Shown piece after piece: positions 23,499-27,507 of a stretch of DNA of 58,753 nt. The stretch is from contig CAJOJO010000001.1 of the NCBI GenBank assembly GCA_905235045.1, positions 1-58,753 of the forward strand, given 5' to 3'. The translations under genes and the position numbers were made by a program. Positions within the stretch are counted from its first letter, which is position 1. Every line of letters begins with the position of its first letter. Under the pieces are notes generated by a model. It searched no databases and was not told where the DNA came from. It saw only the letters and a list, made by a program, of their open reading frames with translations. This DNA is from an uncultured Bacilli bacterium (lineage in GTDB: Bacteria; Bacillota_I; Bacilli_A; RF39; UBA660).

Positions 23499-23786
23499 AT
23501 GAGTAGTTTAACAAGTGCGATTAATATTAATATTGATAAAGAAACAAAAGATGAAGCAACTAAAGTATTAAATAGTTTAGGTATGAATATGACAACGGCT
23601 ATTACTTTGTTTTTAAGACAAGTTATTAAAACTGATGGTATTCCATTTGAAATTAAAAATCCTAAACCAACGAGAAAATTAAAACGAGCATTAAAAGAAG
23701 CTGATAAAATTGCTTCTGGAAAAATTAAAAGTAAGGGTTATAGAAATATCGATGAATTGTTTAAGGATATTTTAGATGAAGATTGA
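23499..23786 (+). CDS. RelB/DinJ-family antitoxin
   Basis: ININIDKETKDEATKVLNSLGMNMTTAITLFLRQVIKTDGIPFEI. Confidence 0.93.
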   Translation: MSSLTSAININIDKETKDEATKVLNSLGMNMTTAITLFLRQVIKTDGIPFEIKNPKPTRKLKRALKEADKIASGKIKSKGYRNIDELFKDILDED

Positions 23787-24084
23787 TATTAAAAACACCA
23801 CTAAATATATAGTAAGATCAACTAGCGATTTTAATAGAGATTTAAAAAAAGTACATAAACAAGGAAAAGATATTTCTAAACTGATGTATGTTGTTGAAAA
23901 ACTAGCAAATGAAGAAGATTTAGAAGTATGTTTTAAAAATCATAAATTAAAAGATGATAAAAATTATAAAGACTGTTATGAATGCCATATTGAACCTGAT
24001 TGGTTACTTATTTATAGATATGTTAATAATGAATTAATTTTACTTCTTGTTAATACTGGTAGTCATAGTGAATTATTTAAATAA
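23776..24084 (+). CDS. YafQ/RelE-family mRNA interferase toxin
   Basis: STSDFNRDLKKVHKQGKDISKL...KDCYECHIEPDWLLIYRY...LLLVNTGSHSELF; overlaps antitoxin. Confidence 0.93.
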   Translation: MKIDIKNTTKYIVRSTSDFNRDLKKVHKQGKDISKLMYVVEKLANEEDLEVCFKNHKLKDDKNYKDCYECHIEPDWLLIYRYVNNELILLLVNTGSHSELFK

Positions 24085-24113
24085 AAAAAGCACTTTTAAG
24101 TGCTTTTTTAAAT
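24085..24113. terminator. bidirectional terminator (aaaaaagcacttttaagtgctttttt)
   Basis: hairpin between convergent genes. Confidence 0.75.
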
Positions 24114-24659
24114 AAACAATAGTTCTTGATTAAATGTTTCTTCTTTTTCTATATATTTATCTAATTCAACTACTCTTCCTTCTTCTAATGAAGATTGAAC
24201 ATCAATAATGCGTTGATTCTTTGAACCACGATATTTACATTCATAACTTTTTTCTTCTAAGATAAATTTACCATCAATTAAAACATCAATGTTTTTAAGT
24301 AAATCCATAATGACAGGTTTTGTTTTAGATAAAACTCTTAATTGATCAAAAGTAAATCCCGTATAAGACCATACATTTAATCCTAATTTTTTTGCATGTA
24401 GAGCAATTTCTAAACATGCTTCAGGTTGCATAAAAGGGTCACCGCCAGATAAAGTAATACCATCTTGAAATTCCAAAGTATTTAATTCTTTTTTTATTTC
24501 TTCAATATCTACTAATACGCCACCGTTAAAATCGTGCGTTTCTGGATTATGGCAACCTTTGCAGTTATGAGGGCATCCTTGTGTCCAAATAACAGTTCTG
24601 ATTCCCTCACCATCAACAATACTATCCGATTGTAATGGGGCTGCTAAACGAATTTTCAT
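24108..24659 (-). CDS. nrdG: anaerobic ribonucleotide reductase activating protein
   Basis: radical SAM CPHNCKGCHNPETHDFNGG. Confidence 0.95.
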   Translation of the reverse strand: MKIRLAAPLQSDSIVDGEGIRTVIWTQGCPHNCKGCHNPETHDFNGGVLVDIEEIKKELNTLEFQDGITLSGGDPFMQPEACLEIALHAKKLGLNVWSYTGFTFDQLRVLSKTKPVIMDLLKNIDVLIDGKFILEEKSYECKYRGSKNQRIIDVQSSLEEGRVVELDKYIEKEETFNQELLFI

Positions 24660-24662
24660 ATA

Positions 24663-24827
24663 CTAAGCCTTTTTTACATTTTCACTTAAATCTTTGGTAC
24701 TATGTTTTACTCTATCTTTTTCTTCAGCTCTTTTAGCATTGTTAAATCTTTTAACATCACCTGCTAAATAACCTGTTACTCTTCTAATTCTTTCAAAGCC
24801 AACATTTTCTCCTACCATTTTTTCCAT
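24663..24827 (-). CDS. 54-aa ORF homologous to the C-terminal glycyl-radical tail of NrdD (not in ORF track)
   Basis: MEKMVGENVGFERIRRVTGYLAGDVKRFNNAKRAEEKDRVKHSTKDLSENVKKA; SD aaggaggt overlaps the nrdD stop region. Confidence 0.85.
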   Translation of the reverse strand: MEKMVGENVGFERIRRVTGYLAGDVKRFNNAKRAEEKDRVKHSTKDLSENVKKA

Positions 24828-24840
24828 TTACATTACCTCC

Positions 24841-27126
24841 TTATGCTATTCTATCTACAGGAATTTCTTCAAATTCACGACGTCCACAGCCAGGACATAC
24901 ATCTTTGATAATTCCAACATATCCACAAACTGGATCACGATCAACTGGATGGTTAATAGCGCCATAACCAATTCCTGATTCTTTCATTAAACGAATAACT
25001 TTTTCAAATGCTTCAACATTTTCAGTTAAATCGCCATCCATTTCGATATAACTAATATGTCCTGCATTTGTTAAAGCATGGAATGGTGCTTCTTTCTTTA
25101 TTTTATCAACAATTGAAATATTATAATAAACTGGTACATGGAATGAGTTTGTATAATATTCTCTATCTGTTACTCCTTTAATTTTACCGTAAATAGCTTT
25201 ATCAATATTAACAAAGCGTCCAGATAAACCTTCTGCTGGTGTAGCTAAACAAGTAAAGTTAAGATTATATTTTTCACTGTACTCATCACATTTTTTTCTC
25301 ATAAAGGTAATTATTTCAACACCTAATTTTTCAGCTTTATCTGATTCCCCATGATGTTCACCAATTAAAGCTTTTAAAGTTTCGGCAAGGCCAATGAAAC
25401 CAATTGATAATGTACCATGTTTTAATAATTTACGAATACGATCATTTGGTTTTAAATTATCACCATCGGTCCAAATTCCTTGTCCTAATAAGAATGGGAA
25501 ATTATAAACCTTTTTACTACATTGAATTTCAAATCTTTCTAGTAATTGGTCTCTAACCATATCCATTTCTTCTTCTAATTCTTTATAGAATCCATTCATA
25601 TCAGCTTTATTTCTTTCCTTTAAACATATACCATGTTTAATACCAATCCTTGGTAAGTTAATTGATGTGAATGATAAGTTACCACGCCCAGTAACAATCT
25701 CGTTAGTTCGATCAGTTACATCGCCAATAACTCTTGTACGACATCCCATATAAGCAATCTCAGTATTGAAATCACCTGGTTTATAATAAGGAATATTATG
25801 TGGGGCATCAATAAATGAGAAGTTAGGGAATAATCTTTTAGCTGATACTTTACAAGCTAATTTAAATAAATCATAATTCTTATCTCCAGGATTATAGTTA
25901 ACACCTTCTTTAACTTTGAAAATTGAAACTGGGAAAATTGGTGTTTCTCCATTTCCTAGTCCTCTATCAGCGGCTTCTAAGTAGTTCTTAATAATCATAC
26001 GGCCTTCTGAAGAAGTATCTGTACCAAAATTAATTGATGAGAATGGAACTTGTGCTCCTGCTCTTGAATGCATTGTATTTAAATTATGAATAAATGCTTC
26101 CATCGCTTGATAAGTTAATCTATCAGTTTTAGCAACTGCTTTTTTAACTGAAGTTTTAAAGATACGATCAACTTCTTTTGAATCTTTGATAAATTGTTTA
26201 AAATCATCTAAATTAACATCAATACTATCTAATTTATCAATTTCTTTAAGTACTTTATCAAAATTTACAAAACTAATAAAATCAGTAAATTCTAAATAAT
26301 CATATAATGTTTGTTTAAATTGTTTCTTAAATGTTTTTAAAACACCTGGTGCCATATAATAATCAAAAGCTGGTACTGATTGGCCACCATGTTGATCATT
26401 TTGGTTTGATTGAATAGCAATAGCTGCTAATGCACTATATGACATAATATCATTTGGTTCCCTTAAGTGACCATGTCCGGTATCAAATCCACCTTTAAAT
26501 AATTTGTGTAAATCAATTTGGCAACAAGTAGTTGTACCCATTGGTAAGAAATCCATATCATGAATATGTATTTCACCCGAATCATGAGCTTCAGCATATC
26601 TTGATTTCATTAAATATGACTTAGCAAATTCTTTTGATACAGTACTACCATATTGAAGCATTGTACCCATTGCCGTATCACCATCAACGTTAGCATTTTC
26701 TCTTTTAGCATCTTCTTCGTTTGCTGATTTTAATCCTAAGCTTTCTAATGATTTTAAAAATTTATGAGTTTTCTTTTCTCCAAAAAATAACTCTCGAGAT
26801 GCTGCTCTTCTTTCACGATATCCTTTAAATGATTTATAAACATCTTCATATCCTTTAGCATCTAATTCTTCTTCAATCATATCTTGAATTTCTTCAATTT
26901 TAATTTTTGTTTTTCCTTTATATTCTTTTTCAATTCTTGCAATGACAGCTTGATATACTTTTTGAATATCTTTTTCCGTATAAATTTTTACTTGATCATC
27001 TTCAACATCATTTACAATACTATCAAAACCTTTTTTAATAGCTAAAGCAATCTTTGATCCATCAAAATCTACTTTCTTTCCGTTTCTTTTTTCAACTTTT
27101 AAAGTTGCTAATTTTTCCTCTATCAT
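24841..27126 (-). CDS. nrdD: anaerobic ribonucleoside-triphosphate reductase, main polypeptide (ATP-cone plus catalytic; ends after zinc-ribbon-like CPGCG)
   Basis: ATP-cone N-terminus, HIHDMDFLPMGTTTCCQID, MHSRAGAQVPFSSINFGTDTS; C-terminus HPVDRDPVCGYVGIIKDVCPGCGRREFEEIPVDRIA. Confidence 0.96.
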   Translation of the reverse strand: MIEEKLATLKVEKRNGKKVDFDGSKIALAIKKGFDSIVNDVEDDQVKIYTEKDIQKVYQAVIARIEKEYKGKTKIKIEEIQDMIEEELDAKGYEDVYKSFKGYRERRAASRELFFGEKKTHKFLKSLESLGLKSANEEDAKRENANVDGDTAMGTMLQYGSTVSKEFAKSYLMKSRYAEAHDSGEIHIHDMDFLPMGTTTCCQIDLHKLFKGGFDTGHGHLREPNDIMSYSALAAIAIQSNQNDQHGGQSVPAFDYYMAPGVLKTFKKQFKQTLYDYLEFTDFISFVNFDKVLKEIDKLDSIDVNLDDFKQFIKDSKEVDRIFKTSVKKAVAKTDRLTYQAMEAFIHNLNTMHSRAGAQVPFSSINFGTDTSSEGRMIIKNYLEAADRGLGNGETPIFPVSIFKVKEGVNYNPGDKNYDLFKLACKVSAKRLFPNFSFIDAPHNIPYYKPGDFNTEIAYMGCRTRVIGDVTDRTNEIVTGRGNLSFTSINLPRIGIKHGICLKERNKADMNGFYKELEEEMDMVRDQLLERFEIQCSKKVYNFPFLLGQGIWTDGDNLKPNDRIRKLLKHGTLSIGFIGLAETLKALIGEHHGESDKAEKLGVEIITFMRKKCDEYSEKYNLNFTCLATPAEGLSGRFVNIDKAIYGKIKGVTDREYYTNSFHVPVYYNISIVDKIKKEAPFHALTNAGHISYIEMDGDLTENVEAFEKVIRLMKESGIGYGAINHPVDRDPVCGYVGIIKDVCPGCGRREFEEIPVDRIA

Positions 27127-27507
27127 AATTCATCCTCCTGTTATCTTAACTAAATTGTAATGCAAAAAGATAACCAAAGTCAATACATTTTTGAAAGTTT
27201 TTGCGAAAATTTGTTTGGGCTATTAAATTAGACCTTATTTTTCAATAAATTTCATTTTTTAAATTTTACATTTTTTTACTTTTTTAATTTTTTTGTATTT
27301 TTATTTTTTTCGTTTTTTTCGTCAAATGTTCGCTTTTTCTTTAGTTTTCAACCCTTAATCGTATTTATGACGCAAAGTACAAAAAAATATTTTTTTCAAT
27401 TTTTTTACTTTTTTGATTTTTTAAGTTTTTAAATTTTTAATTTTTTTAAAAATATTATAGTTGCCTATTTTTCACTTTTTCATATATTATGATAGGAGGT
27501 AACACTT

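Follow-up and report, generated by a model that had tools for sequence, protein, structure and literature searches.

Does an anaerobic enzyme exist whose catalytic radical sits on a different gene product from its active site? The question is raised by an nrdD gene, encoding a class III ribonucleotide reductase (RNR), in the window, that is, the whole 58,753-nt stretch of DNA analysed here, which comes from a 78%-complete metagenome-assembled genome (MAG; G000). The gene ends early, and the missing piece seems to follow as a small open reading frame (ORF). We conclude that this class III RNR is very probably split into a 761-aa catalytic and zinc-binding core and a 54-aa subunit comprising the radical glycine loop and C-terminal tail, which would act in trans and be activated by NrdG. 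The features on which the argument turns are as follows.

24841..27126, minus strand: nrdD core, 761 aa, with ATP-cone (PF03477 at 10-107), catalytic barrel and zinc-ribbon-like segment, without a glycyl-radical segment.
24886..24927, minus strand: zinc-ribbon-like segment C734...C744-x2-C747, the final conserved element before the split; its three cysteines are invariant in alignments.
24835..24842, minus strand: Shine-Dalgarno (SD) site AAGGAGGT of the small ORF, overlapping the nrdD stop codon.
24663..24827, minus strand: 54-aa glycyl-radical-domain peptide VGENVGFERIRRVTGYLAGDVKRFNNAKRAEEKDRVKH, corresponding to PF13597 positions 533-562.
24771..24773, minus strand: predicted radical glycine codon, Gly19 of the 54-aa peptide, the counterpart by alignment of Gly711 of P. 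copri NrdD; this Gly is invariant in peptide alignments.
24108..24659, minus strand: nrdG, radical-SAM activase, scoring 150 bits with NCBIfam TIGR02491 (NrdG), above cut-off.

The core chain ends in ...DPVCGYVGIIKDVCPGCGRREFEEIPVDRIA, with its TAA stop at 24841-24843. The ATG of the small ORF, at 24827, lies 13 nt past this stop and 7 nt past the SD site, and nrdG starts 3 nt past the stop of the 54-aa ORF; core, peptide gene and nrdG form one apparent operon. These coordinates agree with the preliminary description of the locus, which had nrdD stopping after the zinc-ribbon segment with an SD site over the stop and an ATG 13 nt further on. Just upstream of nrdD we observe an inverted repeat, GTTATCT...AGATAAC (window 27140-27146 and 27168-27174), a possible operator. 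Adjoining nrdG, at window 23499-24084 on the plus strand, are two small overlapping ORFs that have the look of a RelB/DinJ-YafQ type toxin-antitoxin pair, recognised from sequence only.

Profile searches divide one protein family between the two ORFs. The large ORF matches Pfam NRDD (PF13597) at positions 1-534 only (634 bits), and the 54-aa ORF at positions 533-562 of 562 (30.7 bits against a gathering score of 26.2), so that the halves tile the family end to end. The large ORF also scores 1016 bits with PRK07111 (cut-off 764); NCBIfam PRK14704 and PRK07111 place the 54-aa ORF at the extreme C-terminus, and a phmmer alignment matches it to the radical loop and tail of P. copri NrdD (8p23), at residues 707-738. 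Thus the HMM search that had been suggested for the 54-aa ORF gave an NRDD match above the gathering score, and its proposed identity as the NrdD glycyl-radical segment is upheld by profile and alignment alike. The C-terminal domain of P. copri NrdD consists of a zinc site, a buried loop bearing Gly711, and a tail across the surface (PMC11226230); this layout and the alignment place the break in the window between zinc site and radical loop. The hallmarks of a class III RNR are found in the window, namely an NRDD catalytic domain with barrel cysteines (C201 and C462, invariant in 31 aligned NrdDs), the RVxGYL motif and an NrdG partner, but the motif is on the separate 54-aa ORF and the core chain has none. 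The Gly, RRxTGYL, an N, a K and a tail His are invariant across radical-peptide alignments. The window genome yielded a single radical-segment match and no stand-alone copy beside an intact full-length NrdD. Since the core chain itself lacks a radical segment, the peptide would be an obligate subunit.

The same split was found in relatives. In a survey of 60 relatives and the window, twelve genomes of the window's own family (f1) had it and five had a fused gene (L010, L014, L015, L017, L018); the other families had fused genes. A radical segment was found in 197 of 386 f1 genomes. Among the 150 f1 places listed, 123 are in frames of <100 aa, bearing out the surmise that similar small ORFs exist in related genomes, 26 are in frames of 784-831 aa, and one is in a 182-aa frame at a contig end. 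The proposed survey of nrdD 3' neighbourhoods showed the core-peptide-nrdG order recurring in f1, with a gap from core stop to peptide open frame of about -26 to +28 nt. All three frame relations between peptide and core occur, and the core stops are TAA or TAG. An SD-like site precedes 42 of 42 small ORFs checked; since the motif was a loose one and overlapping loci make a few genes count more than once among the 42, we take this as supporting evidence only. Median dN/dS was 0.21 over 360 pairs with unsaturated synonymous change, and selection on the split is purifying. A quick LG+G4 phylogeny of 77 cores requires 3-5 changes of state within f1; splitting appears to be an old state with a few reversals or repeats. 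Counting against our reading, two genomes of the window's own genus yielded neither part, although MAGs are incomplete.

Some further features of these families were observed. Many f1 split cores (e.g. L011, L012, L013, L004, L008) end in CC, CNC, CDC or CGC after a conserved.E.VP.E.I tail; these endings resemble redox or metal tails, and the window core has no such cysteines. Two f1 genomes (G404 and G275) have, in addition to the operon gene, another radical-peptide gene unlinked to it (L105:2323-2571 and L107:127-306, both minus strand), and these second peptides are close in sequence to the viral-contig peptides L301 and L314, possibly as prophage copies. In the mycoplasma-like family f4, broken-looking radical frames each had one in-frame TGA; we read them in genetic code 4 and did not count them as splits.

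Two explanations would do away with the split altogether. One is that a sequencing or assembly error, or gene decay, has cut a single nrdD in two by frameshift; the fused homologs in the same family lend this some credit, and the preliminary description had itself named a full-length nrdD in close relatives as the sign of a frameshift. Fused f1 genes do exist, but they do not expose an artefact, for split relatives are the majority in f1, which indicates fission rather than error. Against error there are also a single break point in >100 places of f1, a start and SD site for each peptide, variation in frames, gaps and stop codons, the purifying selection, and separate origins in other bacteria and in phages (below), one of them in a closed genome. 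We consider this explanation practically eliminated, and the earlier judgement that the split is no sequencing error stands on its recurrence in f1, the peptides' own start sites and selection. The other explanation is that a full-length chain is still made, through programmed frameshifting or stop readthrough, as the closeness or overlap of the two ORFs in many genomes might suggest. It accords poorly with the use of all three frame relations and of both TAA and TAG stops, with the SD site and ATG ahead of every peptide checked, and with the segments that in other lineages lie hundreds of nt to Mb from the core, and we regard it as very improbable.

Hosts of the split enzyme probably rely on it as their main or only RNR, given that class I/II RNR (PF02867) is absent from 37 of the 38 split f1 genomes, the remaining one having it; the absence is not certain, since the split genomes are mostly MAGs. 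The PF02867 search had no match in the window genome. A second NrdD was present in two of the 12 split genomes of the 60-relative survey. We also noticed proteins that resemble NrdD but are divergent, 28-39% identical to the window core, at L025 (G006) and L026 (G007) and in G022, G031, G034 and G035; those of L025 and L026 lack the radical segment and the MGCRTR cysteine, and L025 is near another RNR-like ORF. A possible pseudoenzyme-activase fusion occurs at L024 (G045:C52) and L033: there NrdG is joined to an NrdD-like protein that lacks the active-site cysteine motifs (SFNTLQIN for TTTCCQID, YGATRNR for MGCRTR), and the fusion comes after another NrdD ending in a thioredoxin/glutaredoxin-like part.

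How might the two-chain enzyme work? We propose that the peptide is translated on its own, apart from the core, and would dock on it with the RVTGYL loop inside the barrel; NrdG would then place the radical on Gly19 of the peptide in trans, and the radical would pass from Gly19 to a core cysteine as in fused NrdD. The P. copri glycyl-radical domain is highly mobile as a unit (PMC11226230), which we count in favour of a separate subunit. Oxygen cuts glycyl-radical enzymes at the glycine, and the small protein GrcA rescues pyruvate formate-lyase (PFL) from this damage (PMC8683613). By analogy, because the radical peptide is separate, an oxygen-cut one might be swapped for a fresh 54 aa, rescuing the large core.

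Free radical segments are not confined to operons of this kind. An unlinked stand-alone NrdD radical protein of ~90 aa is spread over Bacillota and Eggerthellaceae, mostly in genomes that also have an intact fused NrdD; a class-wide search found this combination in families f5, f7, f13 and f19, with unlinked ORFs of about 90-125 aa. In this protein the full radical segment comes after a conserved N-terminal stretch of some 58 aa. In f13 its gene adjoins what we take, going by sequence recognition, to be dapF or luxS/dinB, presumably a chromosomal setting. A DNA pattern tried on known cases matched at least 119 stretches in the GTDB genome collection, with hosts among Clostridia (Ruminococcus, Oscillospiraceae, Christensenellaceae and others), Bacilli and Eggerthellaceae; among the 119 pattern matches listed, 117 are ORFs of <200 aa with the motif. 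Named isolates with the stand-alone protein are Adlercreutzia hattorii, Gordonibacter pamelaeae, Raoultibacter timonensis, Sporobacter termitidis, Anaerotignum sp. MSJ-24 and strain VE202-01. NrdD was present in 30 of 30 genomes checked that have the stand-alone protein, and in most it was fused. Pfam and NCBIfam searches of the stand-alone proteins returned NRDD C-termini only and no GrcA model. In an AlphaFold model of this type (A4), the N-terminal 58 residues form a confident small alpha/beta fold (block pLDDT 83-92), and Foldseek found no significant relative in the PDB (best E 0.09); the radical segment has one helix and low pLDDT (48-58), as expected of a loop ordered only inside the core.

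Some cores appear to have lost their own segment while an unlinked copy stays, in several genomes of which one is closed. In G059, a single 2.53-Mb contig, NrdD ends in ...GLERIPRINLESE with nrdG directly after, and the sole radical-segment match of this type is a stand-alone gene 1.38 Mb from the core. Both the fused and the stand-alone form are present in other genomes of its genus, so the G059 core probably lost its segment recently; its dependence on the stand-alone copy is not proven, because a second NrdD subtype is also present. Eubacterium sp. HAN012 (G900) and an Oscillospiraceae genome (G897) each have a truncated NrdD as the sole one found (ending ...ERIPRIKVE and ...FERIKRIR), one unlinked stand-alone protein and no PF02867. 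G906 resembles these two (core tail ...ERIRRITCSC), but its match contains stops; G907 and G901 have a truncated core plus another NrdD, with an unlinked stand-alone copy in G907. On the NrdD tree the truncated cores sit apart, among fused sisters. Several of their tails keep a remnant of the FERIRRI segment with which the free protein starts, suggesting that duplication came first and core truncation second.

Phages carry both arrangements. Among 80 IMG/VR contigs with NrdD, 57 have it fused, 17 were counted as core plus separate segment, three run off the contig and three have no segment in the locus; among the 17 is L448, possibly a broken frame (it ends ...DILQRITGLS), and the contigs include several near-copies. 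In the phage split cores the gap from core to segment is -23 to +2136 nt, and viral contig L373 has the window's order of core, peptide (62 aa) and nrdG. Two DNA patterns gave candidate orphan radical segments on 88 viral contigs, with the motif kept, by regular expression, in 42 of 47 and 39 of 41 matches; none of these loci has a core and two have nrdG. The neighbours of one orphan (L297) are portal, minor head and terminase genes, those of another (L313) DNA polymerase and helicase. In Eggerthella phage EL753P1, nrdD stops at the same point, with tail EFEAVP, and the radical ORF is interrupted in the record. The same nrdD has an intein-like insertion (L328 3741-6599) adjoining the catalytic Cys loop (YMGC...HNCRTRV).

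The phage copies bear on what the peptide is for. Orphans with no core nearby, and the interrupted copy in EL753P1, might be expected if the peptide were an accessory, a regulator or a phage decoy rather than a radical-bearing subunit; yet the split cores have no other radical glycine, the residues listed above are invariant, and the split genomes mostly have no other RNR, making such a role very unlikely. A harder question is whether the separation confers anything. Gene fission can be neutral, and the f1 state follows the tree with few changes, so it is a serious possibility that the enzyme is obligately two-chain and gains nothing in repair or exchange; to this we give somewhat less than an even chance. 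What it leaves unexplained is that separation recurs in unrelated lineages, that stand-alone copies are retained beside intact fused NrdD, and that phages carry the segment, which together suggest a use for a free radical domain. Our tentative proposal, to which we would give close to an even chance, is that the NrdD radical domain is exchangeable in many anaerobes and phages: free peptides would repair or recharge oxygen-damaged NrdD, cores would repeatedly have dropped their own segment, and phages would carry peptides for host dNTP synthesis in infection.

Spare parts have been validated for PFL only, being possible and unproven for other glycyl-radical enzymes (PMC8683613). The RNR reviews and phylogenies that we read treat the class III radical domain as the NrdD C-terminus and mention splits for class II only; a search of the open-access literature turned up neither a split NrdD nor a spare part for NrdD. 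The stand-alone NrdD radical proteins are concrete spare-part candidates for an essential enzyme, the one for DNA-precursor synthesis in anaerobes. The split enzymes allow core and radical to be mixed, exchanged and labelled independently, so that activation, radical docking and oxygen repair become open to direct test. The detached tail suggests a replaceable part, a testable case of radical repair outside the sole enzyme where it is known.

The window enzyme shares with known class III NrdD (PF13597; P. copri 8P23, phage T4 1H78) the core, ATP-cone, zinc segment, radical-loop sequence and NrdG operon partner; the solved ones that we found are single chains, whereas here a gene of its own encodes the radical segment. 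The split class II RNR NrdJa/NrdJb of Pseudomonas also comes as two chains, its C-terminal part being detached (PMC4520616, PMC9669993), but it is B12-dependent and its separated part carries no radical, whereas the window enzyme is class III, without PF02867, and it is the radical segment that is separated. A further likeness is to the PFL spare parts GrcA/YfiD and T4 Y06I, likewise small autonomous proteins with the glycyl-radical domain of a large enzyme, with phage versions on both sides. The comparison with GrcA/YfiD drawn at the outset survives in its logic, not in ancestry: the small proteins matched NRDD models only, and neither GrcA models nor Gly_radical (PF01228), so membership of the GrcA family is ruled out by profiles, and GrcA/YfiD descends from PFL as the window and stand-alone proteins do from NrdD. 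GrcA/YfiD is moreover a spare beside an intact enzyme, whereas the window peptide would be an obligate subunit; the GrcA-like layout is instead found in other genomes, where a stand-alone protein mostly accompanies a fused NrdD.
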